DNA of 60,896 nucleotides, taken from NCBI GenBank assembly GCA_016783945.1, contig JADHVP010000004.1, positions 1-60,896 of the forward strand. The letters run 5' to 3'. A model generated the notes under the pieces. That model was not told where the DNA came from, searched no databases, and worked only from the letters and a program-made list of their open reading frames with translations. The position numbers and the translations under genes are program-made. Below are positions 6,596 through 29,113 of the stretch, piece by piece. Every line of letters begins with the position of its first letter. Within the stretch, counting starts at the first letter, position 1. The stretch is from Ignavibacteria bacterium. GTDB taxonomy: Bacteria > Bacteroidota > Ignavibacteria > Tepidaquicellales > Tepidaquicellaceae.

Positions 6596-7168
6596 TTATT
6601 TTACACAAATATTGCGATATGTACAATTAACACATCTTAGTTTATATTTCGTTGCCTTCGGAAAATAATTATCATTTATAATACTAACAATCTCTTTAGT
6701 GCAATCATTTACGAATCGTTTATCGGAATCTGTTATGTTCACTTCTAAAAGTTTGTTCCTGCTTCGAGTGTAAACCAAAAACCCTTTGCATACTTCCTTT
6801 CCATAATTTGATTCTATCAAAATTGCATAACAATACAATTGTGTCTTATATGTTTCAAACAATTTTTCCTTATATTCCGCAAATTTATAATCAAGAGGTG
6901 CCATTGTACCGTCACTTAAAAGTAAAACTTCATCGACCTGCCCTCTCAAATTTTCATTTGTCAAGTACTGATCCAGATATTTTTCAGTAACTCCAATTCG
7001 CTGCCTTAAATAATCTCTGTTAATTTTCAATCTATCGCTGTGCAGTTCTCTCCCTTTAATTACTTTATAATATTTTTCCTCGAATTGAGGTATACATAAC
7101 ACATATTCAAAGTAAGTATACCTTGGACAAAATAGATACTCGATAATATGAGAAGGAGTTATGCTCAT
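6596..7168 (-). CDS. cas4: CRISPR-associated exonuclease Cas4
   Basis: A 190-aa RecB-like nuclease with an Fe-S cluster. Visible are the N-terminal cluster Cys (LFCPRY, C14), the nuclease residues D79 (GQVDEV), D93-x-K95 (PLDYK) and the QxxxY box (Q110-Y114), and the C-terminal cysteines C179, C182 and C188 (CVNCTYRNIC). Cas4 trims prespacers and selects the PAM-proximal end during adaptation together with Cas1-Cas2. It is the last gene of the cas operon, 18 bp after cas2, and borders the leader. Length and motifs are complete, so adaptation should be functional. Confidence 0.95.
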   Translation of the reverse strand: MSITPSHIIEYLFCPRYTYFEYVLCIPQFEEKYYKVIKGRELHSDRLKINRDYLRQRIGVTEKYLDQYLTNENLRGQVDEVLLLSDGTMAPLDYKFAEYKEKLFETYKTQLYCYAILIESNYGKEVCKGFLVYTRSRNKLLEVNITDSDKRFVNDCTKEIVSIINDNYFPKATKYKLRCVNCTYRNICVK

Positions 7169-7186
7169 ATACTTTTAGAACAGTTA

Positions 7187-7477
7187 TCAAAACAAAAGAG
7201 ACTTAACCTGGTCTGTTACTAATTTTTTATCGAACGCCTGACCAAGTAAAACAGTTTGTTTCAACTCACTTTTGCTCATGGGAAAAATATAAACTGAATC
7301 TGTATCTTCGTTTATAAGTTCTTGAATCCTTAGTTTCAATGCATCTTTCTCGCTTAATTCCAAAGTACCAAGAAAAACTGAATACTGAACTCTGTATAAT
7401 CCGGTTTGCTTGCAGATTTTTGCAACTGTGGTTCTTGGTTTATCTTTTTTTATGTCATACATGACCCAAACGATCAT
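7187..7477 (-). CDS. cas2: CRISPR-associated endoribonuclease Cas2
   Basis: A 96-aa ferredoxin-fold Cas2. The first strand MIVWVMYDIKKD carries the conserved Asp at residue 8, followed by the helix in which R-x-Q-Y-S-V-F (LYRVQYSVFLG) forms the second strand. Cas2 dimers hold two Cas1 dimers in the spacer integration complex. The start codon overlaps the end of cas1 by 4 bp (ATGA), indicating translational coupling. Confidence 0.96.
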   Translation of the reverse strand: MIVWVMYDIKKDKPRTTVAKICKQTGLYRVQYSVFLGTLELSEKDALKLRIQELINEDTDSVYIFPMSKSELKQTVLLGQAFDKKLVTDQVKSLLF

Positions 7478-8469
7478 ATATCTTTTATTAATGAATTAGC
7501 GAAAGCATGTGCATCAAATTGAATAACATTGCTTCTTATTTGATTCCGTCCTTTATATCTCACCTTTTCCTCTTCAAAATATTTGTTGAATGATTCGACT
7601 AACAAAATTTTTCCGTTTTTATTTAATGTATATCCATTAGTAATCTTATCAACATGAGTTTGATTAACTTTTTTACCGGAAAATAATTTAAACACAACTC
7701 TTTCTGCAAATATTCTGTATGGTTCTATGAAATCGAATACCATACTTAATTGATTGTAATCATCTCTGTGCAAAAAGCCCACATAAGGATCAACTCCTGC
7801 GATGATAAGAGCTTTCTCAATTTTGGAATACAAAATACCATAAGAATAATTCAAAAAAGCATTGAATGAATCCTTTGCCGGTCTTGAACTCCTCCCTTTA
7901 AATTTATATTCTTCTGAAAGTAAATTTGAAAGTGTTTCGAAATAAATCCTTCCCGATGTTCCCTCTAATCCTCTTAATGTATCTGCGAAGTCTTTAACTT
8001 CATTCCCTTTTAATAACTCCAGTGATTTCTTTAATTTTTCTATGTTCTCAATTTTTTCGTCAATGAATTCAGCTTTTGTACCCCTATGTTTTTTTAGATC
8101 TTTCAAAAAATCAAACTGGTTTTGAATTTTTGTGTTAATCCATAGTTTAATCCACCAAACACCAACTGAACTCGTACTTGCTTGTAATTGCTTTTTTCTA
8201 ATTTTGGTTGTGCTGCCGAGTTTACTATGCCAAACACGACCTAAGGGATGTCCATCATTTTCTATAAATACTATGTCAATGTTATTTTTAACAGCAAGCT
8301 TAACTGCATCTGTGCTAAGAGCAATTCCCTGTGCTAATACAATGCTCGTAACTTTTTTTGCCGAGTAATGGTATTTCTGAATTTCTTGATTTTCATTTTT
8401 AACTTTTACTTCAAACATCTCATCTTTAATATGAATGTAGGCGCCTTTTGTGTTAATGTTTAATTGCAT
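7474..8469 (-). CDS. cas1: CRISPR-associated integrase Cas1
   Basis: A 331-aa Cas1, full length for type I-B. The N-terminal beta domain (AYIHIKDEMFEV) is followed by the alpha-helical catalytic domain with the metal ligands E169 (GLEGTSGRIYF), H234 (GFLHRDD) and E249 (FDFIEPYR). Cas1 catalyses integration of new spacers at the leader-repeat junction. It starts the adaptation block cas1-cas2-cas4, separated from cas6 by a 185-bp gap that could hold an internal promoter. Confidence 0.96.
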   Translation of the reverse strand: MQLNINTKGAYIHIKDEMFEVKVKNENQEIQKYHYSAKKVTSIVLAQGIALSTDAVKLAVKNNIDIVFIENDGHPLGRVWHSKLGSTTKIRKKQLQASTSSVGVWWIKLWINTKIQNQFDFLKDLKKHRGTKAEFIDEKIENIEKLKKSLELLKGNEVKDFADTLRGLEGTSGRIYFETLSNLLSEEYKFKGRSSRPAKDSFNAFLNYSYGILYSKIEKALIIAGVDPYVGFLHRDDYNQLSMVFDFIEPYRIFAERVVFKLFSGKKVNQTHVDKITNGYTLNKNGKILLVESFNKYFEEEKVRYKGRNQIRSNVIQFDAHAFANSLIKDI

Positions 8470-8654
8470 TACAATTTATTTTTTCTCGTGTATGTTTTTT
8501 GTTACACGGAGTTTCACGGAGAAGACACTGAGATTTATGAAAAATATTTTTATTACTTTATGTTTTTAATAACTCATGAATGCTTCGTAGCAAATATTTT
8601 TGGAGGCAGCATACAATATTATTGTATATTTTTGGAGTCATAACACAAAAATAT
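8470..8654. other. Gap between effector and adaptation cas genes
   Basis: This 185-bp non-coding stretch splits the cas operon into an effector half (cas8b to cas6) and an adaptation half (cas1, cas2, cas4). It contains a phrase of the type TTACACGGAGTTTCACGGAG (about 8501-8520), similar in style to short dispersed repeats elsewhere in the window. An internal promoter for the adaptation genes is possible but not demonstrated. Confidence 0.45.
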
Positions 8655-9326
8655 CTAAAATTTTCTTACTATACATCCAAAACCTCTCGATACAGATTTT
8701 CCAATACCAATGTAATCCGGCAGCAAGACATTAGTTGTGAACTTACCTTTAAAAGCAATCATTGATTTGTTCTTAAAACTTGTCTTCTTCTCTATTAAAT
8801 CGCTTTTTATTAAAATGTTTTCAGAAGCATGATAATTTATTGACTTAAAAAAGCTCAAAATGTTACCGGTTAAAATGCCATCCAATAATTTTGAAATATC
8901 ATTTTTTTGTTTTTCTTTTTTTAATTTAATATATCGTTTATGATTATACTGGTTCAAAGCCATCCAAAGAGTCTCAAATTCATATTCGTGAAGTTCATTA
9001 GTCAAACCTGTTTCGCAATTTTTGTTTTCAATATTCTTACTGTAAACCGGGTAAATTTTATTTTCAATATTCAATTCTTTTATTTTTAGAAACAGCGATG
9101 TTAAAAGTTCAGCACCCTCGTTAATCCCAACTAACATAGGAACTCCTTTCACCACTTTATACTGAACTACTGGATATTTATATATCTGCGTACCATCTTC
9201 GAAATGGTTATGAAGCAACTGAGAATGTTCTTTGAACAAGTCCCCGAAGTATCCGCGTAGTTTGTGAGCATCGCGTGTGAGGAGATTTATTTCGGGGAAA
9301 CGTATTGTGGAAGTGAGGATGTGCAT
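8655..9326 (-). CDS. cas6: CRISPR repeat endoribonuclease Cas6
   Basis: A 223-aa RAMP protein. The C-terminal glycine-rich loop GIGKSVSRGFGCIV (about residues 206-219) and the LPDYIGIG strand before it are the hallmark of Cas6. The N-terminal half has the second ferredoxin-like domain, with a possible general-base histidine at one of the N-terminal positions. Cas6 cleaves the repeat transcript to leave the ATTGAAAC handle. It follows cas3 by 12 bp, whereas in many I-B loci cas6 is first in the operon; here it is the last effector gene. Confidence 0.87.
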   Translation of the reverse strand: MHILTSTIRFPEINLLTRDAHKLRGYFGDLFKEHSQLLHNHFEDGTQIYKYPVVQYKVVKGVPMLVGINEGAELLTSLFLKIKELNIENKIYPVYSKNIENKNCETGLTNELHEYEFETLWMALNQYNHKRYIKLKKEKQKNDISKLLDGILTGNILSFFKSINYHASENILIKSDLIEKKTSFKNKSMIAFKGKFTTNVLLPDYIGIGKSVSRGFGCIVRKF

Positions 9327-9338
9327 GTTGTGTAAATT

Positions 9339-11774
9339 TTATAACATCACTATTTTACTTTTATCTTCATCTTCTTTTTTTCTGATAAATCCTGTTTCAG
9401 CATTATAGTATTTTTCTAATAATTCTTTAGGTACTATCATAATATTGTCTGTTAATGTTGTACTATTTCCTTCTTGCTCGAGTGATTTTAGATAATATTT
9501 CGGAACTGCAATTATTCTTTGATTAAAATCTTGTTTATAATATTTGTCGAAATCAGTTTTTGAAATTTCACTTTTAATTTTTGCCAAATACTTTTCTTTT
9601 AAATTTGATTCATACTCTCCCTGTTCTATAAATACGGCAGTTGTATTTACGGATTCTTCTATGATTTTAAAATTTGAAACAGGACAATCTTCACTGTTTT
9701 CAGAGTCATATCGAAGCATCTTCATAGACTCAAAAATCTTATTGAAACGTGAAAAAGATTTTTTATCTTTTATATTATCAAAATATTTATTGATTATATT
9801 TAGATAATCTTTTTCTAAAAACTCTGAATTTCCTTCAAGTGCTAATTTGGCTTGGTCGCTAGTTATTCGTCCATAAATCTTTTGTGCATCACCAAAGTCA
9901 ACAATGTAAAGTGGTGAATTCTTTTTTTTAGGATTATTATTACGATTTACTCTTCCAGCAACCTGAATTATGGAGTCAATAGGACCTAAATCCCTAAATC
10001 CCATATCAAAATCCAAGTCAACACCTGCTTCAACAACTTGAGTTGAGACTAAAATAGGTGCCTGATCTGAATTAATCTGCTCTTTTAATTCACTTATCCT
10101 ATCAAATCTGTGAGCGGGAATAATATTAGTAGATAAATATTCTATAGGATTATTGAATCCTTTTTGCTCTAAGTAAATTTTTATTGCTTCAAAGATTTCT
10201 ATTGATCTTTTTACTGTATTACATACTATGATGCAGGATTTATTTGATTCCCATTTTTTAGAGAAAAATTTTTTAATAAAAACATTAGTCAAAGTGTCAT
10301 ATTCTAACTTTAAATCTATTAATGGAACGATTTTAGTTCTTTCAAATATAGAAAACACTGCTTGGTAACAGTCCAATAGTTCTAACGGTTTTACAGTTTC
10401 TCCTTCTTTTGATAGTATTTGCTCTTGAGCCATTTCAAATATTTTTGGCTTTGTAGCAGTCATTAATATAATTCTTGATTTTAAAAATTTGGCAAGATAA
10501 AATAATACTGCACCTAGCAAAGGCATTTGATCAAGCCTAAGCGTTTGAACTTCGTCTAGAATTATAATTGAATTGGCGTAATGATTGAATTTTTTTAGTA
10601 ACTTATTTCTATTACCAATCAATGTTTCAAAGAATTGAACAAAAGAAGTAATCACAACATCTGACTGCCATGTATCTAATGCCATTAGTCTTTGGTTATA
10701 ATGTTGCTCGGCTCCGTCTTCATTTCGCTTTTCTTTTTCTTCCCCAAAAAAATCAGCGTATTGATAATGACCTAAAATTTCAGTCCCAACTGGTAAAGTA
10801 TCTTTATATTCCTTTATAGCCTGTTCAATAATATTAATGAATGGCAGTGCATAAATTATTCTACATTCCAATTTAGATTCTTCTTTAACCTTTGCTTTTA
10901 ATTTTAATGCAAAGTCTAAGGAGATCATTGTCTTTCCAATTCCGGTGGGGGCTGTTAGCGTAAAGATATAATGATCGAGAATATCCTGTTGTTCGAGATT
11001 GGAAATTACTTGAGCACGACAGAAGTTTCTGAATTGATTATTGGATAGGTTTATCATACCATATTTTGATATGTTAAAATCAAAATTTCCAAATCTCTTA
11101 TCTACTACATTTTTTTCAATTGATTTAGGGATATAAACTATTGTATCAGACGCGTCTAATTTATCTGATTCAATTAACAACGAAAACAAATAATTAATCA
11201 AAAAATAGTCTTTAATATTTTGATTTTTTTTAGACCAGACTTTGAAGCCTCTTCTAATGGGTTTTTCTTCAGGATAATGAATAATTTCTGAAAGATTATC
11301 CACCCGTAAATCCGTTTGAATATTATTTAAATACTTTTGCAAATCATTCTTTTGATAATCAATGACTTTTGAAAGATTGTCATTCAATCTCTCTGAAATT
11401 TGAAGTATGTCGATTAATTGAGAGTGGTGTAAAAAAATGAGGAATAAAGCCAATAAAGCCTTTTTCTCGTCCTTTTCTTTTAACAAATTATAAGCTGCAA
11501 AGCCACCTATACGTGAGTGTTGTTTTAGAATGCCATCAATTGGCTCTTTTTTAAGTAAGTAATTTTGAAAATATGAAGTGTATTTACCTAAGTCATGAAA
11601 TTGAACTACTATTTTTAGCAAATCTTTCAAGTCTTCGTCAGAAAATCCTAAATCAAGGTTCGGCGAATGAAGAAGATGGGCTTTTTCTAAAACTCCATTG
11701 ACGTGATCAATAAGTTTTTTTGTTCCATACACATTACCATCATTTCCGATCTTACTATGCGAAAAGTAAGTCAT
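9339..11774 (-). CDS. cas3: CRISPR-associated helicase-nuclease Cas3
   Basis: An 811-aa fused HD nuclease and SF2 helicase. The HD domain shows H60-D61 (FHDLGKYTSYF), H86 (HSRIGG) and H116/H117. The helicase has Walker A TAPTGIGKT (about 274-282), a motif II of ILDEVQ (DEVQ rather than DEAH/DECH), motif III TATKP and motif VI QVAGRVNR. It unwinds and degrades the non-target strand after Cascade recruitment. Its start overlaps the cas5 stop by 4 bp. The motifs look intact. DEVQ is a known variation among I-B Cas3 proteins, but I cannot rank its frequency. Confidence 0.95.
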   Translation of the reverse strand: MTYFSHSKIGNDGNVYGTKKLIDHVNGVLEKAHLLHSPNLDLGFSDEDLKDLLKIVVQFHDLGKYTSYFQNYLLKKEPIDGILKQHSRIGGFAAYNLLKEKDEKKALLALFLIFLHHSQLIDILQISERLNDNLSKVIDYQKNDLQKYLNNIQTDLRVDNLSEIIHYPEEKPIRRGFKVWSKKNQNIKDYFLINYLFSLLIESDKLDASDTIVYIPKSIEKNVVDKRFGNFDFNISKYGMINLSNNQFRNFCRAQVISNLEQQDILDHYIFTLTAPTGIGKTMISLDFALKLKAKVKEESKLECRIIYALPFINIIEQAIKEYKDTLPVGTEILGHYQYADFFGEEKEKRNEDGAEQHYNQRLMALDTWQSDVVITSFVQFFETLIGNRNKLLKKFNHYANSIIILDEVQTLRLDQMPLLGAVLFYLAKFLKSRIILMTATKPKIFEMAQEQILSKEGETVKPLELLDCYQAVFSIFERTKIVPLIDLKLEYDTLTNVFIKKFFSKKWESNKSCIIVCNTVKRSIEIFEAIKIYLEQKGFNNPIEYLSTNIIPAHRFDRISELKEQINSDQAPILVSTQVVEAGVDLDFDMGFRDLGPIDSIIQVAGRVNRNNNPKKKNSPLYIVDFGDAQKIYGRITSDQAKLALEGNSEFLEKDYLNIINKYFDNIKDKKSFSRFNKIFESMKMLRYDSENSEDCPVSNFKIIEESVNTTAVFIEQGEYESNLKEKYLAKIKSEISKTDFDKYYKQDFNQRIIAVPKYYLKSLEQEGNSTTLTDNIMIVPKELLEKYYNAETGFIRKKEDEDKSKIVML

Positions 11775-12571
11775 ACATCCATGAATTGAAGATTGACGAT
11801 TTCATTTTTCAATTCAATTTCATAATATGATTTTTTTAGTTTTACTCTTATAGGGTATGGAGTAATTGAGAAAAGTAAGCGATTCATTTTTCTAACTTCC
11901 CGATTGCCATTAGCTACAAAATCCCCGGGCATCATATCTTCTTCTATAAAATTGTAATTGCCGAACTCTTCCTTATCAAACTTTAAATCCTGAATCAAAT
12001 TAGTTGGTACAGCAGTATTTATCAAAACATAGTCATTCGATGATTTTTCTATTATTTTATTATTATCAAGACACTCAATATCTGAGATGGAAGCAGTAAA
12101 ATTTGCAGTTCCAAGGGTAATGTTGAAAACCGGAACCTGATTTAAGAATCGCTCTTTGACAATTTGGTATGTCTCAAGTCCAAATTTAGTAGGTGAAATA
12201 AAAACCTGATATATCACTTCAACTTTCCTAATATCCCAGCCACTTACAACCTCAAAAGGAGTTTGGATTCTACCTTCTTCACCTCTGAAATCTGATGACC
12301 ATTTTTTAGCCATATCACCAATTGACTTAATACTCAAAAGATTTAGGCGGTGAAAACTTTTTTTTAGTGGACTTAATACCCTAATACCAAAGTGTATTTT
12401 TTCAGAAGCTAAATCTTCATAATAGGAATTTTTTGGCAAACCCATTGCAGCAGCAACAATTCCCATCAAGCTGGTGCGTGGTGGAATTGAAAAGCTAAAC
12501 GCAGTGTTATTTGCATAATATTTTCTGAAATGAGCCAACTTACCACGTATTTTAAAACATAATATTTCCAT
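11771..12571 (-). CDS. cas5: Cascade subunit Cas5 (Cas5h/Cas5b type)
   Basis: A 266-aa RAMP protein. The N-terminal strand EILCFKIRGKLAHFRK and the following PPRTSLMGIVAAAMGLP helix are diagnostic of Cas5, which caps the crRNA 5' handle in Cascade. The C-terminal half contains beta-rich segments typical of the I-B lineage. It lies 24 bp after cas7 and is translationally coupled to cas3 by an ATGA overlap. Confidence 0.92.
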   Translation of the reverse strand: MEILCFKIRGKLAHFRKYYANNTAFSFSIPPRTSLMGIVAAAMGLPKNSYYEDLASEKIHFGIRVLSPLKKSFHRLNLLSIKSIGDMAKKWSSDFRGEEGRIQTPFEVVSGWDIRKVEVIYQVFISPTKFGLETYQIVKERFLNQVPVFNITLGTANFTASISDIECLDNNKIIEKSSNDYVLINTAVPTNLIQDLKFDKEEFGNYNFIEEDMMPGDFVANGNREVRKMNRLLFSITPYPIRVKLKKSYYEIELKNEIVNLQFMDV

Positions 12572-12595
12572 AGACCAAGTTTTTAATAACCTAAC

Positions 12596-13609
12596 TTAAA
12601 GTGAAATAATAATATCTGATGAAGATTTAATTTTAACTTCTTTTATTTTCTTGTCTTCACCTTTATTTTCTTTCAACAAGGTCAATAGTCTGTTAAAACT
12701 AATTTCCAAATCATTAAACTTTCTAACTTGTTTTTCGGAAACACCTGATTTAGGAGATACATCTACATAATTTCTTAAATCACCGAATTGACCATTTGAA
12801 AACCTTTCGTTATAAATAACTTCCACATAAAGTTTTGGATATTGATTAAGCTTAGAGCGGGTAGGATTTGCTGGAATACTTTCCCAAAGGGCATTTCGGA
12901 AAACTTCAACATCTTCATCTGTTAATCCGGTAGTTTTAGCTGCGGGAGTATTAATCGTTCCATTAAAACCTAATAAACTGTAATGTACTCTATAGTCTTT
13001 TCCGAAAGTGCTACTATCATCATTCATTATCGTAACTATCGAACTTGAATCAATCAGTTCTACCTTATTGAATGAATAACCCCAGTTTAATTGGATTGGA
13101 CCCGTATAAGCTTTTGTAAAACCGGCAACTGCAAAAGCACTTCCGAACATTCTTATATCAATAAATTTTTCTTTCACTAAATAAGCAAGAAGCTCGTAAT
13201 TAACTTCCTTATCTTTGAATTTTTTGTCTGCAATAACTTTCCATACTTTATCCGGTTCTTTTTCTTTACTAATGATTTTTTTGTAAATATCTAGTGCATC
13301 TTTATTTTCTGTAAATACTTTTTCTAATTCTCCAGGATTTTCTATAGTCCTTTTTACGACGGCCTTTAGTTTGCTATCAACGCTTACTTTTGAATTACCT
13401 TCCATATCTACAAATATACATTCATCTTTGTTCGTGGATTTTAAATAATCCCTAATAAATCTTTTCACACGAGTATCAGTAACCAAATTGGTATTGGTGT
13501 CATAATCCATTCTTGGTTTGTTTTCCTGATCCGGGTCGCCATTTGGATTGCATTGTATAGCTTCATATATGAACAGGAAATCTGATGAGTTTTTTATTGT
13601 CTCTTTCAT
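12596..13609 (-). CDS. cas7: Cascade backbone Cas7 (Csh2 family)
   Basis: A 337-aa Cas7 of the I-B Csh2 type. The N-terminus FIYEAIQCNPNGDPDQ, then RMDYDTNT and TDTRVKRFIRDYL, matches the conserved Cas7/Cst2/DevR signature. Multiple copies form the crRNA-binding backbone of Cascade. The middle contains RMFGSAFAV and the GPIQLNWGYS strand expected in this family. It sits 24 bp after cas8b in the effector operon. Confidence 0.94.
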   Translation of the reverse strand: MKETIKNSSDFLFIYEAIQCNPNGDPDQENKPRMDYDTNTNLVTDTRVKRFIRDYLKSTNKDECIFVDMEGNSKVSVDSKLKAVVKRTIENPGELEKVFTENKDALDIYKKIISKEKEPDKVWKVIADKKFKDKEVNYELLAYLVKEKFIDIRMFGSAFAVAGFTKAYTGPIQLNWGYSFNKVELIDSSSIVTIMNDDSSTFGKDYRVHYSLLGFNGTINTPAAKTTGLTDEDVEVFRNALWESIPANPTRSKLNQYPKLYVEVIYNERFSNGQFGDLRNYVDVSPKSGVSEKQVRKFNDLEISFNRLLTLLKENKGEDKKIKEVKIKSSSDIIISL

Positions 13610-13633
13610 ATTATATTTATTTAAAGTTTATAA

Positions 13634-15610
13634 TTAATTTTCAGTTTCTTCGGTTTCTACATCTTCAATTTCTTTTGCCTCTTTTGTACTTATACCAAAA
13701 GAATAGCCGGTAAGAAGAAAGAAAACGGCTTCCTTCGGGTTCAGTTTCCAATTATTAAAATCGAATAGTTCTCCAAATTTTCTATCAGTAAAAATAATCT
13801 TGCCGATAGTATTATGTTGTCTAGATTTTTCAATTAAATCCTTCCTTAATCTTTCGATGTCATCTATATCCATCCCGTTGAAATTTACTTTATTGATGAC
13901 GGTTTTCTTAATTTTCTTTTTAATTTGAACAAATTCAACCGCATTTAACATACGTCCAAGATAGAACATTGATTGCTGTGCTGTATTGAGTTGCATTTTG
14001 TTGAAGAAATCTTGTATGGCTTGGTCATACTTATTTCTGGTTTCTTCGGTGATTGGTTTTATTTTTTCCATATTTATTAGATTTAATTTTTTTAGTACTT
14101 GAATGAAAGCGTGGTATTTAAAAACACTATCGCGTACAGTTTTTCCAAAATAATCTTTAGAAGATTTAATGATATTATTATAGCTGTTGTATCGCTCGTA
14201 GTAATGACATAAAATAAGTTCACAGAAGTAATCAAAAAGCTTAACATGATTAATGTTCCTGTTTTCCAAAATTGACTTAAACAAGTCTAAGGCTTTATTC
14301 CTCTTTTCCTTATCCTTTCGAATTGGAATTAGTCCATAAATAGTATTGAGATTAAAAAACCTCCCTGGATTTCCGTATTCAGTCATTACTGAATTCCAAT
14401 CAATATAATTAGCTTCCTTTAGTTCCCAGTGAATATCACTAAATGCCTGTATGACCTTTTGAAAATGAAAATTGCTTACATCCTTGATAAGTTCAGTTGA
14501 TTTGAAAAAGTTACCATCGGATTCATACGCCATAAAATTTATCCAGAAAATATCTTCTGTTTCATCTTCGATATTTTTTACCAAATCTTCAAGCGTATTA
14601 AAGTGGAATAAAATGTCCGCCTTCTTCTTGATACCTGTTAAAACCATTTCCCAATCAAGATTTTCACTTTCACGGAATTGGGGGATTATAACGTGGTCTA
14701 TATTAGCTATTGAAATTCTATATTTCTCAAGTAAATACTTGGAAGCAAAATCTAGTTTTTCTTGATTAGAAACCGAAACCTGGTAATTTATAGCTGCGTT
14801 TTTTTTATCAAATCTATTTATATAGTTTTGGGTTGTTGTAACAAACATTTTATTTAAGCTGTAACCTGCGGTTAAATTTAGTTCGGTAACATTTTCATAG
14901 TACTCATTATTGGCGTAACATAGTTTTTTTGAACTTACATTACTTAAATTTTCAGACTTCTTTTTGTAATCTTTTACGGAGTATTTTAATTCCAAAAACT
15001 CCCTATATTCATCTAATTCAGCAAATGGCTTTGGATCGTTTATTCCAAATTCTTTATATTTAACTTCAATATAAATCATAGCAACATTTTCACTTCTTTC
15101 AAGGTTCAAGTCCTTTATAATCTTAAGAAAGTTTATTTTCGAATTTCCTTCACCATCTTCTTCGGTAATCAATATCTCCGCCTTACTTTTAAGTTTAAAG
15201 ATTTTATCAATAAGCAAAGTAAATTTACTGTTATCTAAGTTCGGGTAGTCTTTGATAATAATTGATTTTAGTTCACCATATTTTACTTCAGTTAATGGTT
15301 TTCCAAAAAAACTCTTAAAGACTTGTTCATATTTACCGGATAGTGAAGCGGAATAGAATGGCTTAAATCTTCTGCCTAAATTTTTTAGCAAAAAATATTT
15401 GCTTATATCACTTTCATCGTACTCTCTAAGATTCTTCGCATCAATTATCACCTCCATTTCATCTAAATCAAAAATTATTGGAAGAATAAAGTGGGAAATT
15501 TTATTCCCCTTTTTATCCTCTGTCTGTATCTTTGGTTTATCTAAAAAGCGAGCCCATTCGCCTTTACCCTGGCTTTGCCATTTACCAATTTTTAGTAATG
15601 TATCAAGCAT
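13634..15610 (-). CDS. cas8b: Cascade large subunit Cas8b (Csh1/TM1802 family)
   Basis: A 658-aa protein, first gene of the cas operon. The N-terminal MLDTLLKIGKWQSQGKGEW and HFILPIIFDLD segments, the LRRDL-like helix-rich C-terminus, the length, and its place directly before csh2/cas5/cas3 fit the divergent Csh1/TM1802 large subunit, which recognises the PAM and recruits Cas3. The C-terminus ends in a Glu-rich tail (KEIEDVETEETEN). Family members are poorly conserved, so context carries much of the assignment. Confidence 0.88.
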   Translation of the reverse strand: MLDTLLKIGKWQSQGKGEWARFLDKPKIQTEDKKGNKISHFILPIIFDLDEMEVIIDAKNLREYDESDISKYFLLKNLGRRFKPFYSASLSGKYEQVFKSFFGKPLTEVKYGELKSIIIKDYPNLDNSKFTLLIDKIFKLKSKAEILITEEDGEGNSKINFLKIIKDLNLERSENVAMIYIEVKYKEFGINDPKPFAELDEYREFLELKYSVKDYKKKSENLSNVSSKKLCYANNEYYENVTELNLTAGYSLNKMFVTTTQNYINRFDKKNAAINYQVSVSNQEKLDFASKYLLEKYRISIANIDHVIIPQFRESENLDWEMVLTGIKKKADILFHFNTLEDLVKNIEDETEDIFWINFMAYESDGNFFKSTELIKDVSNFHFQKVIQAFSDIHWELKEANYIDWNSVMTEYGNPGRFFNLNTIYGLIPIRKDKEKRNKALDLFKSILENRNINHVKLFDYFCELILCHYYERYNSYNNIIKSSKDYFGKTVRDSVFKYHAFIQVLKKLNLINMEKIKPITEETRNKYDQAIQDFFNKMQLNTAQQSMFYLGRMLNAVEFVQIKKKIKKTVINKVNFNGMDIDDIERLRKDLIEKSRQHNTIGKIIFTDRKFGELFDFNNWKLNPKEAVFFLLTGYSFGISTKEAKEIEDVETEETEN

Positions 15611-15897: not shown

Positions 15898-15914
15898 GTA
15901 TCATTCAATGATAC
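15898..15914. promoter_or_regulatory. Palindromic operator candidate (copy 1)
   Basis: GTATCATTCAATGATAC is a perfect palindrome, two 8-bp arms around a single C. It is located 288 bp upstream of cas8b and 5 bp beyond the stop codon of a relic WYL gene tail. Related sites occur at 20881-20895, 25049-25065 and 28801-28818, each embedded in A-GTATCA-NNN-AATGATA-Y followed by a TTTTCT-like run. WYL-family repressors typically bind such inverted repeats. Binding here is an inference. Confidence 0.6.
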
Positions 15915-15916
15915 TT

Positions 15917-15982
15917 TTCTCACTCATAATTTCTCAGCGTCCCCTTCGCAAGCTCCATAACTTTTTCTTTAAGTTCGGGAGG
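15917..15982 (-). pseudogene. Relic 3' tail of a WYL regulator gene (tail 1)
   Basis: On the minus strand this stretch encodes PPELKEKVMELAKGTLRNYE and a stop, differing at only a few positions from the C-terminus of the intact WYL protein (PPELKEKVLELAKGTLGNYE, gene at 19917-20780). DNA identity to the intact 3' end is about 88 percent over 68 bp, then is lost abruptly at 15983, 17 bp before the fic stop codon. Only the tail remains. Confidence 0.82.
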
Positions 15983-15999
15983 TTTATTTATCAATGATT

Positions 16000-17782: not shown

Positions 17783-17828
17783 AATAATGCTTTTGTCTGC
17801 ATAACTATCAAGTTAACTTGACATACAA

Positions 17829-18005: not shown

Positions 18006-18060
18006 GCTTTAAAAATATCCGTTAATTTTAAATCATTAACCTCTATGTATTTTTCTCTTT

Positions 18061-18140
18061 CTCACCCATAATTCCCCAGTGTGCCCTTCGCAAGCTCTAT
18101 AACTTTTTCTTTTAGTTCAGGAGGTTCGAGGACACCTACG
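18061..18140 (-). pseudogene. Relic 3' tail of a WYL regulator gene (tail 3)
   Basis: The minus strand encodes VGVLEPPELKEKVIELAKGTLGNYG before the stop, almost identical to the C-terminus of the intact WYL protein. Homology ends at about 18140, next to an imperfect inverted repeat. It is the best preserved tail. Confidence 0.8.
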
Positions 18141-18158
18141 ATTCATTATGCACACTCA

Positions 18159-18185
18159 TTGTGCAAGTATTAAAAACTTACACAA
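18159..18185. promoter_or_regulatory. Imperfect inverted repeat beside WYL tail 3
   Basis: TTGTGCAAGT and ACTTACACAA form 10-bp arms with one mismatch around a 7-nt centre. A second TTGTGCACAAGTA phrase follows near 18200. It could be an operator of a lost gene; no gene now starts here. Confidence 0.4.
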
Positions 18186-18221
18186 AACATTTAATTTTTG
18201 TGCACAAGTATTTAAATTCTA

Positions 18222-18302
18222 ATTAATCCCCCTGTCTCCACCAACCATTTCAAACACTATATTTACTACCAACTTATTTACCAACCCTTCTACTAACCGT
18301 TT
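18222..18302 (-). pseudogene. Relic of a second AlbA/GHKL-type gene linker
   Basis: The minus strand reads NGLVEGLVNKLVVNIVFEM and stops near 18222. The GLVEGLV repeat closely resembles GLVKGLVEGLVE in the linker of the neighbouring intact protein (18332-19696, residues 383-394). It lies just downstream of that gene's stop codon, so it may be the remains of a paralogue or of a duplicated 3' segment. Confidence 0.45.
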
Positions 18303-18331
18303 GCAACCTTGATATAATTTCTTAAACAAAT

Positions 18332-19696: not shown

Positions 19697-19916
19697 TGGG
19701 ACACGTATTTTCTCAATTGCTACGGAGTTCGGTATGGCTTATGCAATTTGTTTGCGATTTTCCATACATAAAATTTATCAGGTTTTGATTAATAGACATA
19801 TATAATCTGTAAATGTTTTAAAGTTTAAACCCTAATTCGTATTAAATGCATCTCCTCATCAAATTTACTTATTCTCAAGAACTTATAAAACATAAACGAA
19901 AAACCTTGGTTCTTTC
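19697..19916. other. Gap between AlbA-like gene and WYL regulator
   Basis: 220 bp of AT-rich DNA without a supported gene. It should contain the promoter of the AlbA_2-type gene, or readthrough from the WYL gene upstream. Confidence 0.4.
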
Positions 19917-20780
19917 TCACTCATAATTCCCCAACGTCCCCTTTGCAAGCTCCAAAACTTTTTCTTTTAGTTCAGGTGGTTCGAGCACTATAACACCTTC
20001 ACCTCTGCTTACTATCCAGCTTGCTATTTCACTTAATGAGTTTACTGTAATTGAAAGGTCCATCGTTCCGTCATCATACTCTTCGATTATCTGTGATTCC
20101 ATTAACTGCTGTGGCTTAATCCTTGATGCCCATTCTTTTGAGAACTTTAACTTTACATTAAACTTCTCATTACCCTGCCAGCTCTTCCAGGAATGTTTGA
20201 ACAGGTCATCGATTTGATTTTGAGGTACTCGTTTGAACTTTTTACCTGTCTCTTTTACTTCGATTATCTTGTTCAAAAGGAATTGTTTTATAATACCGTT
20301 GTCAAGTGCAAGAACTCTCCAATTATTTTCAGTTTGAAAAAGTTGTATTGGAAATATTTCTCTTGTCTTTCTTGGTTCGTTTGCAACTTTCTCGTAAGTA
20401 ATAAGGACAGCTTTGTTGTTATCAATACATCTCTGCAATACAACGATGTTGCAGATTGCTTTCTCCTTTAGCTTGCTTACCATCAGAGCAGTAGATTTAT
20501 CGAATGAGTTCTGTGAAAAACACAATCCAATATAAAGCCGTGCAATTTCTTTTAATTTTTCAAGTGGAATCTTACCTGTGATGCAGACTCCGTAATTTTT
20601 AGCAGAGTGGATATCTATTCCGTTTGCCCGCAAGTCCTGCAGGTCTCGTTTTATGGTAAGCTCTTCTACATCGAATATCTCTGCCAGGTCGAGTATTGAT
20701 AATGCATTTTTCCTTTCATTAGCAATGCACAAACCTAATAGTTCTATCTGTCTTTTTATCTTGGTCTGAATTTCAAACAT
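19917..20780 (-). CDS. WYL-domain transcriptional regulator
   Basis: A 287-aa protein. An N-terminal DeoR-like helix-turn-helix (about 1-60, SILDLAEIFDVEELTIKRDLQDL) precedes a WYL domain (about 115-195: AVLITYEK ... REIFPIQLFQTENNWRVLAL) and a C-terminal WCX-like extension ending PPELKEKVLELAKGTLGNYE. WYL proteins of the BrxR/CapW type repress defence operons and respond to nucleic-acid ligands. The gene is divergent from the ARPP-1 operon, with a palindrome in the shared 171-bp region, the typical CapW layout. Three further 3' tails of the same family lie in the 4 kb downstream, so this is the sole intact survivor. Confidence 0.9.
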   Translation of the reverse strand: MFEIQTKIKRQIELLGLCIANERKNALSILDLAEIFDVEELTIKRDLQDLRANGIDIHSAKNYGVCITGKIPLEKLKEIARLYIGLCFSQNSFDKSTALMVSKLKEKAICNIVVLQRCIDNNKAVLITYEKVANEPRKTREIFPIQLFQTENNWRVLALDNGIIKQFLLNKIIEVKETGKKFKRVPQNQIDDLFKHSWKSWQGNEKFNVKLKFSKEWASRIKPQQLMESQIIEEYDDGTMDLSITVNSLSEIASWIVSRGEGVIVLEPPELKEKVLELAKGTLGNYE

Positions 20781-20880
20781 GGAATATGATAATAGAAATT
20801 TAACAAAATGCTGTTTGATTGAATTATTCTATATCACAGGAAGTAGTGTCAGATTCTGCAGCATGTTTTCAAGAAAATAA

Positions 20881-20895
20881 TATCATTCAATGATA
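20881..20895. promoter_or_regulatory. Palindromic operator candidate (copy 2)
   Basis: TATCATTCAATGATA, a 7+1+7 palindrome, lies midway between the WYL start (20780) and the ARPP-1 start (20952). Read on the minus strand it is AGTATCATTGAATGATAT, matching the other copies. Its place in a divergent WYL promoter makes it the best-supported member of the four-copy family. Confidence 0.65.
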
Positions 20896-20951
20896 CTAAA
20901 GTAAATATTATAAAAAGTAAATTAAGATAAAAATAAATAAGGGAGAAAAAA

Positions 20952-21863
20952 ATGCAATCTCAAATTTTGAACATACAAAATAACGGGTGTTTGACCATAG
21001 CTGAACTTTCTACAGAAGGAACCGATAAACTCATGTATATAAGCGGAGACACAGCTATTAAGCAGAGAAAATTAATCATCGAAGAAGTCTCTGAATCCGG
21101 GAGTGTGAATGATTTACTTGTAAGGAATCTGTCAGACCAGTTTGTATTCATGATGGACGGGGATATCTTAATAGGTGCAAAGCAGAACCGTGTTTTAAAT
21201 ACTTCTGTGTTTATAGCACCTGAATCCAAATCAAAAATCAATGTAAGCTGTGTTGAATCAGGCAGATGGGCTTACAGAACAAAGTCATTTACTTCTGCTG
21301 ATTTCACAATGGATTTTGCAATGCGATGCAGTAAATCGAGAGCCACGACAAAAAGTTTACGGGAAAAACGTGGGCATTACGCAGACCAAAATAAAATATG
21401 GGAAGGAATAGCTGATTCACATTCCTCTAGAAAAATTTATTCTGATACGTCAGACTACTCGGAAATTTATGAAACATCGAAAAAGGATATCAATAAATTC
21501 ATAAATGATTTCAAATCTGATAGCTCAGCAAATGGTATGTCTGTTTTCATTAACAATAAATTGATATGTCTGGATATCTTTGGAAGAAAAGACATATACA
21601 AAGAATATTTCCCAAAGCTTTTAAAGGGTGCTGCACAGGATGCTATATTTATAAAGAAGAAAAAAGAGTTTAATGAAGCTGAGGTAAAGTACAAGACGGT
21701 AGATTTCCTTGATAAGTTCGATGACATGAAATTCACTTCTCATAAAGGTCTTTGTGAAGGTCAGGAAAGAAGATTTGAAACAAAAGAAATATCTGGTTTT
21801 GAATTACTGTATGAAAACAATCTAATTCATTTAACCGGTTTAAACATTAAAGATGAAAAATAA
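20952..21863 (+). CDS. ARPP-1 domain protein
   Basis: A 303-aa protein whose core (about residues 12-110) matches the ARPP-1 domain: LTIAELS near the start, SVNDLLVRNLSDQFVFMMDG, ILIGAKQNRVLNTSVFI and SKINVSCVESGRW. ARPP-1 was named from comparative genomics for its association with predicted prokaryotic conflict systems; its biochemical role is not known to me. A strong Shine-Dalgarno GGGAG lies 6 bp before the ATG. The stop overlaps the next start by 11 bp. Transcription is divergent from the WYL regulator, which suggests WYL control. Confidence 0.78.
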   Translation: MQSQILNIQNNGCLTIAELSTEGTDKLMYISGDTAIKQRKLIIEEVSESGSVNDLLVRNLSDQFVFMMDGDILIGAKQNRVLNTSVFIAPESKSKINVSCVESGRWAYRTKSFTSADFTMDFAMRCSKSRATTKSLREKRGHYADQNKIWEGIADSHSSRKIYSDTSDYSEIYETSKKDINKFINDFKSDSSANGMSVFINNKLICLDIFGRKDIYKEYFPKLLKGAAQDAIFIKKKKEFNEAEVKYKTVDFLDKFDDMKFTSHKGLCEGQERRFETKEISGFELLYENNLIHLTGLNIKDEK

Positions 21864-22842
21864 CAAAATGAAAATAGCAGAGGGGAAAATATATTATGAG
21901 CAAAAGCCCAAGCTTATGCTCGAGGAACTTAACAGTTTACAGAGAGAAAAAATAACAGTCGATCCAACCAAACTGAAATTGAAAGATGACAAGGATAGAC
22001 TATTGCTTCAGGTAACAAACGGAAGCGTAAAACATTACCCGGTTAGAAGAGCATTCCTTTACAAACTTCTTAAATGGTACTGGTTTCCAACAAGACTTAT
22101 CTATAAACTCAGCACAGAATCAATTGTATCTGTGTGTAATGATTTTCTACTGAACATAAAATCCGACCAGGTAAATGTTAAAATTGAAAACGATGAAGCT
22201 CTAACAATCACGAGTATGAAATATACTGATATAACTGATAGGGAAATACTGGAGATGTGTGTACCGTTCGATATAGGCTCTGTTTCAAGGTCAGATTTTT
22301 GTATGAGAATGTATGGGCAAAAGTTGCTCAATGCTGCGCCTGTTGTGGATGATAAATGCGGTTTTGGATTTAATATTTTAAATTCAGAGACAGGGTTTAG
22401 AGCTCTGGGTGTTTATCATTACATATTGAGATATATATGCACTAACGGAGCCATCGCACCGGTTAATGGTTCTTCAACGTATGTTCATTACGATAAGAGC
22501 AAGAAGAATATTCTCGAATCTCTAAAGAAAAATCTTGATAAGTTGGAGGATTCAAAATTGATTATAATAAAACAATTGGGGAGGATGCAATATGCAGGGG
22601 GAAGAAAATATTTAAGTAACATAAAAAAAAGTCTGGAAGCATTATTAGGTTTAAAGGAAACAAACAATTTTGTTGAAAAGTTTGAGATGTCATTGAGCAA
22701 AAAAGAACAAACCAAATATGATTTGTTTAATTACATCACTAATAGAGCTAAGCTATATGATTTTGGAAAACGCATTGCAATTGAAGAAATAGCAGGGAAA
22801 TTAATTTCATTAGACGTGAAAGAAGAAACAAATCAAAATTAA
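21853..22842 (+). CDS. DUF932-like protein in the ARPP-1 operon
   Basis: A 329-aa protein with NSETGFRALGVYHYILRYICTNGAI at about 177-201, resembling the NS-x-G ... R-x-VC-x-NG signature of DUF932 (phage/plasmid-like TIGR03299) proteins. The rest is alpha-helical and Lys-rich, with no membrane segment. The function of the family is not established; members are frequent on mobile elements. The start at 21853 (MKNNKMKIAEG) overlaps the previous gene, and M6 is an alternative. Co-transcription with ARPP-1 suggests a two-protein system. Confidence 0.62.
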   Translation: MKNNKMKIAEGKIYYEQKPKLMLEELNSLQREKITVDPTKLKLKDDKDRLLLQVTNGSVKHYPVRRAFLYKLLKWYWFPTRLIYKLSTESIVSVCNDFLLNIKSDQVNVKIENDEALTITSMKYTDITDREILEMCVPFDIGSVSRSDFCMRMYGQKLLNAAPVVDDKCGFGFNILNSETGFRALGVYHYILRYICTNGAIAPVNGSSTYVHYDKSKKNILESLKKNLDKLEDSKLIIIKQLGRMQYAGGRKYLSNIKKSLEALLGLKETNNFVEKFEMSLSKKEQTKYDLFNYITNRAKLYDFGKRIAIEEIAGKLISLDVKEETNQN

Positions 22843-22848
22843 ATTGAA

Positions 22849-23166
22849 ATGAGAAAGATTTCAAAAATATTTATAATACTTTTTGTATTGGTACTAATAG
22901 GGTGTTCATCTTCATACAATAAATACAATGCGAAGCCCCCTAAAGAAAACAAATATGCTGAGCTGGAAGAGCCTTGCGATGGATTGAAATTAAAAGTTAC
23001 TCTCCATTTATATGATAAAGATTTTATAATAGAATATAATATTGATGAGTATAAAATCGAAAAGAATATTAAAGGACAGAGTATATTAACCCTATACGGA
23101 CCTTGTGGAATGATAGTCTTCTTTCCAATGGATAATATCATGCAATTAAAGTTTAGAGAGTTGTGA
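22849..23166 (+). CDS. Small lipoprotein
   Basis: A 105-aa protein with a lipoprotein signal peptide (MRKISKIFIILFVLVLIGCSSS, lipobox LIGC with Cys at 19). The mature part is short and contains two further Cys (EPCDG, GPCGM) that could form a disulphide. It begins 6 bp after the DUF932-like gene, so it may be third in the ARPP operon. It converges with the 114-aa membrane protein gene. No family recognised. Confidence 0.7.
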   Translation: MRKISKIFIILFVLVLIGCSSSYNKYNAKPPKENKYAELEEPCDGLKLKVTLHLYDKDFIIEYNIDEYKIEKNIKGQSILTLYGPCGMIVFFPMDNIMQLKFREL

Positions 23167-23511
23167 TTATTCCCCAATTCTTTTTACCTCTCTGAAAGTT
23201 TTATTCATATCAAACATTGTTCCTGAATCAGAACTTATAAAAAGGGAATCTAATTGAGATTCGAATGAATCTTTTGATTCCAGCGATATGAAATCTTGTA
23301 AGTTTAAATTATCTTCTTTTATTGCTACAGTGTATGATTGAATAAAACCAAGAATAAAACATGTACAGCTAAATAGAAATAAGAATGCTCCTATCTTTTT
23401 GTATATCCTTACAGTCCTACAATCTTTAAAAGCTTTAGCGAGAAAAATAAATAAAAGACCGAATAGAAAAAGTATGTATATTAAAATAATATCAAAGAAG
23501 TTAAAAGACAT
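23167..23511 (-). CDS. Membrane protein, 114 aa, protease operon
   Basis: Two predicted transmembrane segments (about 6-26 and 41-60) are followed by an acidic, Ser/Asp-rich soluble tail (LESKDSFESQLDSLFISSDSG). No homology recognised. It is the last gene of a minus-strand operon headed by a trypsin-like protease gene, 11 bp after the 59-aa membrane protein gene. Its stop abuts the end of the convergent lipoprotein gene. Confidence 0.68.
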   Translation of the reverse strand: MSFNFFDIILIYILFLFGLLFIFLAKAFKDCRTVRIYKKIGAFLFLFSCTCFILGFIQSYTVAIKEDNLNLQDFISLESKDSFESQLDSLFISSDSGTMFDMNKTFREVKRIGE

Positions 23512-23522
23512 TTTCTAATTTA

Positions 23523-23702
23523 TTATCCTTTTAATAATTCTGTGATTTTTTTCTTCTGTTTAAAAATAACAATCAGTAGAAATATTATTAACGCTGGATT
23601 TATAAAACAAAATATGACAACGTTTAACGCTTCATATGTCATTCCTAACAGATCACTCAACCAGGATAAAAAATAAACGCAGTATCTAAATAGCTCATTC
23701 AT
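23523..23702 (-). CDS. Small membrane protein, 59 aa
   Basis: An ATG at 23702 overlaps the protease stop codon (ATGA), giving translational coupling. The 59-aa frame reads MNELFRYCVYFLSWLSDLLG, then one or two hydrophobic helices (VVIFCFINPALIIFLLIVIF) and a basic KQKKKITELLKG end, consistent with an inner-membrane protein with a positive cytoplasmic tail. It is below common ORF length cutoffs and easily missed. Function unknown; context links it to the protease. Confidence 0.72.
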   Translation of the reverse strand: MNELFRYCVYFLSWLSDLLGMTYEALNVVIFCFINPALIIFLLIVIFKQKKKITELLKG

Positions 23703-25024
23703 TTCCCAATAGCTCCTTTAGGTCGTTCATCACCATCTGCCCTGGTATAATCTTCCTCATAATTTATATTGATTCCATATTCCAATATCTTTTCTATAGT
23801 ACTTTTCAACTCTGGATTATCATTCTGTACTGACAACAGTTCTAAAGCATTGTTCAAATCATTAATTCCGTCTTTTTTATATTTAAGATGTAGATACGAT
23901 ACTCCTCTGTAATAATAAGCTTCATAATCTGAGTCGTTGAGTATCATGTGTTCGCTGAAGTCTCTTGAAGCAGCTATATAATTTTGCATAAGGAAATAAA
24001 CTATACCTCTTTTTAAATAAAGTCCACGGTCTGATTTGTTCTGTTTTAAATCATTCGTATAGCCTGTTATAAGATTGCTGTATGTGTTTAAAACTTTTCC
24101 TTTTGTAGTAGTTGTATCATAATATAGCCAGTTCTTTTCAGGGCAAATCTCCATGAGTTTGTTATAATCCTCAAAAGACAATTTGTATTCTCTTGAGTTA
24201 TAACGGGCATAACCTCTGTAGTAATAAGCCTCCGGATAAAACTTGTTGATTTCTAATAGTTCGTTGCACACACGCTCAACCTGTGAATACTCTTCATATA
24301 CAAAAGAATTGATCATTCGAAATCTTAAATCTATCGTAAGCGTATCTACGCTGTAATAATTTCTATTAACTAAAACATCTTCATAATATGAAATTGGTAT
24401 GGCAAAGTTTATTCCGGGATAGGTATCATAACCGAGAGTTGTAATTCCTATTAACTCACCCTTTGAATTAAATAATGCACCACCACTGCTGCCGGGAGAA
24501 ACTATTGCTGAGAATTGAAGCATATCACTATACATTATATCGAAGTTTCTCTTTAATCCACTTATAATCCCATTACTAAAAGAGTTGCTCAGTTCGAATG
24601 GACTACCAATCGTATAAACATTTTCTCCAACTATGAAGTTATCACAGTCGCCCAATTTGACAACAGGTAACTCTAAACTATCAAGTGATAGGATCGCAAT
24701 GTCTCTTGATTCATTCGCTGCGATGAGTTTTGCAAAACCCAAAGTTACGCTGTCTTTTTTAATCTCATACTTTTTCGCTTCTGATAAGACATGAAAATTT
24801 GTTGCAATAATTCCAGGCTCAATAATGACACCGCTTCCACTTATCCATTCTTCATCTTGATAATCATACGTGAAAATATCTACTACTGAAGGAGAGCACA
24901 TCTTAAAGACCTCTTGAGGAGTTAAATCCTGAGAGAATAATTTTACAGTTGTGAAGAGTAAAACTATTGTGATAAAGACTATTATTTTTTTCATGATGAA
25001 TAAATTTAAGTTAATAAAATTCAC
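23699..25024 (-). CDS. Secreted trypsin-like (S1C) serine protease with TPR repeats
   Basis: A 441-aa frame. The likely start is M11 (MKKIIVFITIVLLFTTVKLFS), which begins a signal peptide, so the protein is exported. A trypsin_2 domain follows with the full triad by motif: H78 (ATNFHVL), D108 (RDIAILSL) and S180 (SPGSSGGALFN). No PDZ domain follows. Residues about 250-400 contain TPR-like repeats (AYYYRGYARYNSREYKLSFEDY, AYYYRGVSYLHLKYKKDGINDL). DegP-like proteases act on envelope proteins; a TPR partner domain suggests a specific target. It heads an operon with two small membrane proteins and is preceded by one of the 58-bp repeats carrying the palindrome. Confidence 0.85.
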   Translation of the reverse strand: MNFINLNLFIMKKIIVFITIVLLFTTVKLFSQDLTPQEVFKMCSPSVVDIFTYDYQDEEWISGSGVIIEPGIIATNFHVLSEAKKYEIKKDSVTLGFAKLIAANESRDIAILSLDSLELPVVKLGDCDNFIVGENVYTIGSPFELSNSFSNGIISGLKRNFDIMYSDMLQFSAIVSPGSSGGALFNSKGELIGITTLGYDTYPGINFAIPISYYEDVLVNRNYYSVDTLTIDLRFRMINSFVYEEYSQVERVCNELLEINKFYPEAYYYRGYARYNSREYKLSFEDYNKLMEICPEKNWLYYDTTTTKGKVLNTYSNLITGYTNDLKQNKSDRGLYLKRGIVYFLMQNYIAASRDFSEHMILNDSDYEAYYYRGVSYLHLKYKKDGINDLNNALELLSVQNDNPELKSTIEKILEYGININYEEDYTRADGDERPKGAIGK

Positions 25025-25031
25025 ATCTGAT

Positions 25032-25089
25032 ACAAAATAATGTTTTTTGTTTTAAGAACAGTATCAGAGAATGATATTTTTCTAAGGAT
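25032..25089. repeat. 58-bp direct repeat, left copy (with palindrome copy 3)
   Basis: Matches 28774-28831 in 55 of 58 positions in the same orientation. It begins CAAAATAATGTTTTTTGTT and ends TTTTTCTAAGGATG, with the operator-like GTATCAGAGAATGATAT inside (about 25049-25065). It lies directly upstream of the protease gene and 84 bp before a divergent TPR gene. Similarity is lost sharply at both ends. Confidence 0.88.
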
Positions 25090-25172
25090 GAGCTTTCAGG
25101 ATTTTTTGTTTTTAATAAAAGGATTAATTTTAAATAAGTATCATAATCTTCGTTCAATATTATTACAAAACA

Positions 25173-25463
25173 ATGATCGCACAAAGAGATTTGTCACTTG
25201 AAAGTAAACAGTTAAAAGCATTTGAAATCTCTCAAGAGGCAGAAGATATATATGAAACGGCTACCAGGGAATATCAAAATGCTAATTATATTGAAGCGAT
25301 AGAAATATTCACTAAAGTAATTGAATTAGAACCAGAATATTTTTTCGCATATCATTTTCGAGGAATGGCTTATTATTATTTACTAAACTTCAAAAAGGCT
25401 CAGAAAGACTGGGACAAAGCATCACAGGCTATGAAGACTTTGAGTCCGGAAAAAAGAAAATGA
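25173..25463 (+). CDS. Small TPR protein
   Basis: A 96-aa protein containing about one and a half TPR motifs (YQNANYIEAIEIFTKVIELEP, FFAYHFRGMAYYYLLNFKKAQKDW), with no signal peptide. It may be a fragment of a larger TPR protein. It is the first frame inside the segment bounded by the 58-bp repeats and reads toward the nuclease module, ending 88 bp before the two-TM protein start. Confidence 0.6.
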   Translation: MIAQRDLSLESKQLKAFEISQEAEDIYETATREYQNANYIEAIEIFTKVIELEPEYFFAYHFRGMAYYYLLNFKKAQKDWDKASQAMKTLSPEKRK

Positions 25464-25550
25464 GGAGTTTTGAAGTGAAATACTTTTGTGAATATGTTTT
25501 TCTCTTTTATAATAAAGGTTGCCTTTGTAAAATTTAAAACAAATACAATT

Positions 25551-26258: not shown

Positions 26259-26267
26259 AAAAATCAA

Positions 26268-28773: not shown

Positions 28774-28831
28774 CAAAATAATGTTTTTTGTTATGAGAAC
28801 AGTATCAGCGAATGATATTTTTCTAAGGATG
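28774..28831. repeat. 58-bp direct repeat, right copy (with palindrome copy 4)
   Basis: Direct copy of 25032-25089 with three mismatches, containing GTATCAGCGAATGATAT (about 28802-28818). It lies downstream of the beta-CASP gene and has no gene starting next to it on the minus side, unlike the left copy. The offset between copies is 3742 bp. Confidence 0.88.
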
Positions 28832-29106: not shown

Positions 29107-29113
29107 AAACAAT

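Follow-up and report, generated by a model that had tools for sequence, protein, structure and literature searches.

We analysed a 60,896-nucleotide stretch of an Ignavibacteria genome (hereafter, the window), in which a gene of the ARPP-1 family lies next to a divergent WYL regulator gene. The features considered here, with positions counted from the first letter of the window, are as follows.

20952..21863, + strand: ARPP-1 (PF20208 = DUF6569) gene, 303 aa (Pfam E=1.6e-82).
21853..22842, + strand: DUF932-like gene, hereafter g2, 329 aa, motif NSETGF...RYICTNGAI (identified through phrog_1362, a weak PF06067 match and hhalign).
22849..23166, + strand: gene for a small predicted lipoprotein, its N-terminus with a lipobox-like LIGCSS; no Pfam family.
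19917..20780, − strand: WYL transcription factor gene, HTH_11-WYL-WCX by Pfam; presumed operator reader.
20880..20896: putative operator ATATCATTCAATGATAC, between WYL and ARPP-1, 55 bp upstream of the ARPP-1 ATG and 99 bp upstream of the WYL ATG.
15898..15914: perfect copy of the putative operator, GTATCATTCAATGATAC, 287 bp upstream of the cas8b ATG.
15914..15991, − strand: WYL gene fragment, last 24 codons, with its stop codon 5 bp from the 15898 operator.
6596..15610, − strand: type I-B CRISPR-Cas operon that begins with cas8b and ends with the cas gene at 6596; a proposed target of the same control.
18056..18133, − strand: second WYL 3'-end fragment, 92% over 24 aa.
17705-17782: third, weaker WYL 3'-end fragment, from self-comparison.
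25061..25077: operator-like site, 1 mismatch, between a trypsin-TPR gene (−) and a small TPR gene (+).
28802..28818: operator-like site, 1 mismatch, a copy of the 25061 site, ~300 bp upstream of a TetR/efflux gene cluster.

The layout given in the original prediction was borne out: ARPP-1 and the second gene overlap by 11 bp, the lipoprotein gene begins 6 bp 3' of the second gene, the WYL gene is divergent from ARPP-1, and the palindrome between these two is real and kept across genomes. The assignment of the first gene also holds, with a PF20208 score of 277.6 bits over residues 4-295 against a curated Pfam cut-off of 27 bits. The invariant family residues Q78, R80, C100, E102, R105, Q146, W150 and H293 are all kept in the window protein, and C100, Q78 and Q146 are invariant in 19/19 aligned ARPP-1 sequences. 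The family is present in 63 of 294 genomes of the class and in 17 of 296 genomes of the phylum. A PDB sequence search with the ARPP-1 and g2 profiles gave no credible match, predicted structures of the two proteins, built from two-sequence alignments, were unusable (mean pLDDT 46.7 and 37.0), and our literature search found no tested function for ARPP-1 or DUF932.

We next asked how the second protein should be classified, having been called DUF932-like at the outset. The window g2 protein belongs to no Pfam family; it has no PF06067 match and so falls outside Pfam DUF932 as defined; five of the six g2 family members match PF06067 weakly, the best of these relatives at E=0.0083 (16.4 bits vs a cut-off of 23), and all six match phrog_1362 (E=2.6e-11 for g2). 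In profile-profile comparison (hhalign), the g2 profile matched divergent DUF932 proteins at 96.6% (E=6.6e-10; shuffled controls ≤0.1%), and these matched typical DUF932 proteins at 99.9%, whereas g2 matched the typical proteins directly at only 15.6%. The earlier label thus stands as profile-level homology and fails as Pfam membership, and by sequence g2 is a divergent member of the DUF932 superfamily. With PF06067 it shares a central motif and this profile-level homology; it differs in scoring under the Pfam cut-off and in forming its own branch, tied to this WYL regulator.

A search for conserved ARPP-1 and DUF932-like pairs, as had been suggested, showed that the pairing recurs. Strong g2 matches (E below 1e-50) occur in 10 of 294 class genomes, and ARPP-1 and strong g2 occur together in five, adjacent in 5/5 and in more than one gene order: ARPP-1 then g2 on the same strand in G000 (this genome), G132, G093 and G422, and convergent in G243. 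These counts leave out nine of 19 genomes with a g2 match, in which the match is weak or partial (E above 1e-50), among them G467, in which the g2 fragment lies at the end of one contig and ARPP-1 is on a different one. A single-protein ARPP-1 scan of genome contigs added one locus, L042, a named Bacteroidetes record with the order g2 then ARPP-1. Across 11 g2 loci, WYL adjoins g2 in 10 and ARPP-1 does so in six; G184 has neither, and the contig of L095 ends inside g2, so that the presence of ARPP-1 there cannot be judged. WYL and ARPP-1 also occur together where g2 is absent (G236, G300, G346 and G318). The constant part of the arrangement is therefore the regulator, with ARPP-1 and g2 carried jointly or singly. 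An ARPP-1 tree gave no answer on how often the pair arose.

DUF932 proteins, as UPF0380, are known from prophages and are also annotated on plasmids, which would fit g2 being an ordinary mobile-element passenger that lies beside ARPP-1 by chance. We consider this very improbable, since the pair recurs in 6/11 loci in several orders, WYL lies beside g2 in 10/11, phage records gave no match to the g2 protein, and two scans of viral contigs confirmed no g2; the outcomes named beforehand as counting against the pair, an unconserved pair or an ordinary phage gene, were thus not what we found. For ARPP-1, viral contigs yielded one broken fragment. The proposed operon as a whole fared less evenly: the ARPP-1/DUF932-like pair recurs, but the lipoprotein gene has no relative in a search of 19 related loci. 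We therefore place the lipoprotein outside the conserved unit, and here it may be co-transcribed with the pair.

As a separate observation, a YbjN family gene (PF10722) lies directly 3' of g2 in two loci (L091:2882-3376 and L092:4591-5076), the L092 copy also being a weak TY-Chap1 match; YbjN-type chaperones are reported in ARG-centred systems in PMC9503650.

The WYL protein of the window contains HTH_11, WYL and WCX, all above Pfam cut-offs, which gives it the wHTH-WYL-WCX architecture, and relatives occur in 75/294 class genomes at E<=1e-20. Comparison of intergenic regions revealed a site common to related WYL loci, GTATCA-N5-TGATAC, and the 37 sites found give the consensus GTATCAT-N3-ATGATAC, a 17-bp palindrome. 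Scanning 400 bp before and 200 bp after each WYL gene, we detected a site with ≤1 mismatch in 35 of 52 loci, compared with 0/52 for the reversed pattern and ~0.06 expected from single-base shuffles; the locus type thus has a conserved inverted repeat upstream of the presumed controlled operon, as in BrxR and CapW. Of the 40 loci picked only by WYL similarity, 24 have the site; the 40 are the upper part of the list of relatives (without G314:C160, for example), and many are from one genus and so not independent. The remaining 17/52 loci had no such site in the scanned stretch, and at least two (L192 and L217) have exact sites just beyond it. The WYL gene and the palindrome, pointed out earlier from this single locus, thus make up a conserved control unit.

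The placement of the site is also informative. Where ARPP-1 lies beside this WYL the site is present in 9/10 cases, 52-61 bp before the start in seven of them (the ninth site, L029 in G243, was taken from a separate site scan, the predicted start there being too far upstream), and where ARPP-1 occurs away from this WYL it is present in 0/22. In G243, in which ARPP-1 and g2 are convergent, each has one exact operator copy of its own. Site placement and the separate copies in G243 are therefore good evidence, at the sequence level, for ARPP-1 and g2 as targets of the WYL regulator. L042 has WYL, g2 and ARPP-1 and no good site.

To the other side of the WYL gene, the perfect copy at 15898 precedes a CRISPR-Cas operon whose first gene matches Cas8b (PDLC01623, E=2.4e-83) and also cas_TM1802. 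The WYL fragment next to it repeats the WYL 3' end in direct orientation (75% over 24 aa in tblastn, E=4e-6), and the site directly follows this fragment, reproducing the WYL-site-cas order of other genomes. In counterparts with an intact WYL (G236, G482, G074 and G473), the WYL stop codon is followed after 3-11 bp by the site and then by the cargo. Cas genes lie near such a WYL in G074, G047, G473 and G482, with Cas6 in all four, Cas8b in G074 and Cas3 in G047. We also considered a general enrichment of cas genes near this WYL and set it aside as not clear (4/51 loci outside the window vs 1/48 in the background). Seven loci form a clade with 100/100 support in the WYL tree: cas genes are found at four of them, g2 with SpoVG at one, ARPP-1 with g2 at another, and none of these at the seventh. 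With either cas or g2/ARPP-1 as cargo within this clade, orthologous WYL regulators with the same site therefore appear to control, or at least to precede, either CRISPR-Cas or g2/ARPP-1, and the window has both.

The cas-side site could be a fossil of a WYL-site-cas module that was broken by insertions, the cas operon no longer being under this regulator. It does adjoin the remnant of a broken WYL gene, and several pieces of the WYL 3' end lie between WYL and cas. However, the palindrome is perfect, whereas the WYL fragment beside it has diverged (75% at the protein level), and the five spacer bases are identical between the 15898 and 20880 sites, which makes this reading unlikely in our estimation. 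Beyond these two sites, the window holds two operator-like sites, bringing the number with ≤1 mismatch to four, against a mean of 0.16 and a maximum of two in 400 simulated windows; the 25061 and 28802 sites lie within copies of one repeat and are not independent in this count. The repeat copies (25013-25090 and 28754-28831; 95% over 58 bp, this 58-bp part lying at 28774-28831 in the second copy) carry one operator-like site each and precede the trypsin-TPR gene and the TetR/efflux cluster, respectively. A relaxed pattern matched seven places in the 2.73 Mb genome, 4/7 of them inside 13 kb of this window.

The three WYL 3'-end fragments flank a Fic gene and an AlbA_2 gene between the intact WYL and cas, the 18056-18133 and 17705-17782 fragments sitting between these two genes, and the fragments look as if cargo had been exchanged at the WYL 3' end. 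A similar fragment, of 50 residues and 98% identical, adjoins the WYL gene in L204.

We further examined what else the regulator might control. The data from other genomes do not support a wide regulon: away from WYL loci, 17/19 further sites examined, the extra sites of G184 and G489 being left out, fall inside predicted ORFs. Among the loci listed, a DUF2071 gene and a conserved gene of unknown function adjoin the site in many WYL relatives of one genus, and response-regulator genes do so in another WYL group. A SpoVG-like gene lies near WYL in 5/52 loci (L026:5768-6184, L093:8205-8447, L207:6372-6620, L214:4844-5113 and L200:3812-4183), directly downstream of WYL in four of them and once between WYL and cas genes; the operator lies between WYL and the SpoVG-like gene in L026, L093, L207 and L214. 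One of the sites away from WYL loci that do not fall inside an ORF is in this genome, where an exact intergenic operator on contig C81 (L134:5664-5680) lies 215 bp before a cluster of an HSDR_N-like fragment, a type III methyltransferase and a Ppl-like ATPase. The reach of the regulator is thus not confined to defence overall, although in this genome its cargo tends that way.

These neighbours raise the possibility, doubtful in our view, of a general stress or housekeeping regulon, in which the WYL subfamily would sense an internal cue and control varied genes, the ARPP-1/DUF932-like pair would work in repair or metabolism (of damaged nucleotides or sugars, for example), and CRISPR would be one link of many. 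Besides the exact sites adjoining DUF2071 or response-regulator genes and the SpoVG neighbours, the affinities of the WYL protein fit such a regulon: its profile matches the DNA-damage regulators PafBC and 8tp8 (the latter we take to be DriD) at E ~1e-12, BrxR (7t8k) at E=0.48 and 7qfz at E=0.1, so that by sequence its closer affinity appears to be with PafBC and 8tp8, and BrxR is more distant. Against this, the window WYL sits in a defence-gene cluster of cas genes, a Fic protein matching PDC-S24 (E=2.2e-202) and an AlbA_2 protein, and the exact intergenic L134 site precedes the type III methyltransferase operon.

That ARPPs associate with WYL, that WYL proteins repress defence operons and that WYL regulators occur near CRISPR is already known, and we compared the locus with the closest of these systems. 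ARPP-1 with a WYL regulator has been described as a two-gene neighbourhood (PMC9503650, section 3.8), which our locus resembles in the ARPP-1 family, the invariant cysteine and glutamine and the adjacent WYL regulator; in contrast, a DUF932-like partner, an operator and a cas operon go unmentioned in that section. BrxR (PMC9122601) shares the wHTH-WYL-WCX architecture; its inverted repeat likewise has a 5-bp spacer, its island has a second box in front of a further operon, and some BrxR homologues adjoin CRISPR-Cas (21 of 210 associated systems). It differs in its weak similarity to the window WYL profile, in the repeat arms (11 bp in BrxR vs 6-7 bp here) and in its cargo, which is BREX there and ARPP-1/DUF932-like plus cas here. 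CapW (PMC9122588) is a wHTH-WYL-WCX protein that represses a defence operon, divergent or adjacent, and is presumably released by a ligand during infection, and our locus matches it in architecture and layout; the CapW cargo is CBASS, whereas no CBASS gene was found among the window proteins scanned. Our literature search found no DUF932-like partner of ARPP-1, no operator of this kind, and no report of one regulator and site common to ARPP-1/DUF932-like and cas genes.

The reading that we think probable is that a WYL repressor co-regulates the ARPP-1/DUF932-like pair and the type I-B CRISPR-Cas operon through a shared palindrome. The genes, their pairing, the conserved site and its placement come from the sequence itself, and from there we infer binding, repression, signal, defence role and biochemistry. 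The WYL factor would bind the 17-bp palindrome and control, most likely repress, two operons, ARPP-1/DUF932-like from the 20880 site and type I-B CRISPR-Cas from the 15898 site. On the model of CapW and BrxR, a dimer bound to the palindrome, 55 bp upstream of the ARPP-1 start codon, would block the promoter and would be released when WYL-WCX binds an infection or nucleic-acid-damage (nucleic-acid-like) signal, which would turn on both operons at once. Probably, ARPP-1 is an enzyme that works through the invariant Cys100 and glutamines, and the DUF932-like protein may be its partner or a parallel component. Because the same palindrome precedes the ARPP-1 pair and the CRISPR genes, the shared switch suggests one co-regulated defence programme; the proposed defence role of the pair also has better circumstantial support than before, since cas operons are linked to this site and regulator as well.

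More tentatively, ARPP-1 and the DUF932-like protein could be a two-protein anti-invader module that a WYL repressor switches on along with type I-B CRISPR-Cas, to which it would be a back-up or helper, with the WYL gene and its downstream operator as a docking site that exchanges defence cargo (cas, Fic, AlbA_2, ARPP-1/DUF932-like) and the WYL 3' fragments as the scars; we hold this combination to be possible and rather doubtful. If the WYL 3' end is indeed a docking site, this would be an additional route of defence-island assembly. With the conserved operator, a conjecture drawn from gene order becomes a regulon that can be tested directly and has a named regulator; the operator also ties the ARPP-1/DUF932-like pair to CRISPR-Cas control and supplies a motif that can be used to find further regulon members.

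The relation of ARPP-1 to ADP-ribosylglycohydrolase (ARG) genes was also examined. In PMC9503650, the ARPP authors suggest that the protein acts on a sugar or ribose moiety, perhaps with a covalent cysteine adduct. The locus differs from the ARG-centred system described there: gene scans of the window found neither an ADP-ribosylglycohydrolase nor a rhodanese-phosphatase gene, and no ADP-ribosylglycohydrolase gene was found in this genome (78% complete), which sets it apart from ARG operons. ARG genes do occur in four of the nine genomes with a WYL-linked ARPP-1, ~2.3 kb beyond the WYL gene in G132, ~8.5 kb off in G300, and elsewhere in the genome in G236 and G243. Those of G132 are four ADP-ribosylglycohydrolase family genes in tandem (G132:C1:2877454-2881689), and G243 has a similar four-gene cluster on another contig. 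On a plasmid, an ARPP-1 gene annotated DUF6569 adjoins an ADP-ribosylglycohydrolase gene and a RecB-like nuclease gene (L045:4890-7558), which is the published ARG-centred layout.

A few further observations concern the window and its relatives. An Rfam search of 15500-29200 found nothing. At 47971-51113, two adjoining long genes are divergent duplicates (74% DNA identity over 1519 bp), and self-comparison revealed a long CRISPR array with a ~73-bp period at 1461-6395, adjoining the cas operon. Lastly, in L100 (5355-8541), the direct neighbours of ARPP-1 are a Cas_NE0113 (CARF) gene and a Card1-like nuclease gene, and cas1 is matched close by, a second and separate tie between ARPP-1 and CRISPR genes.
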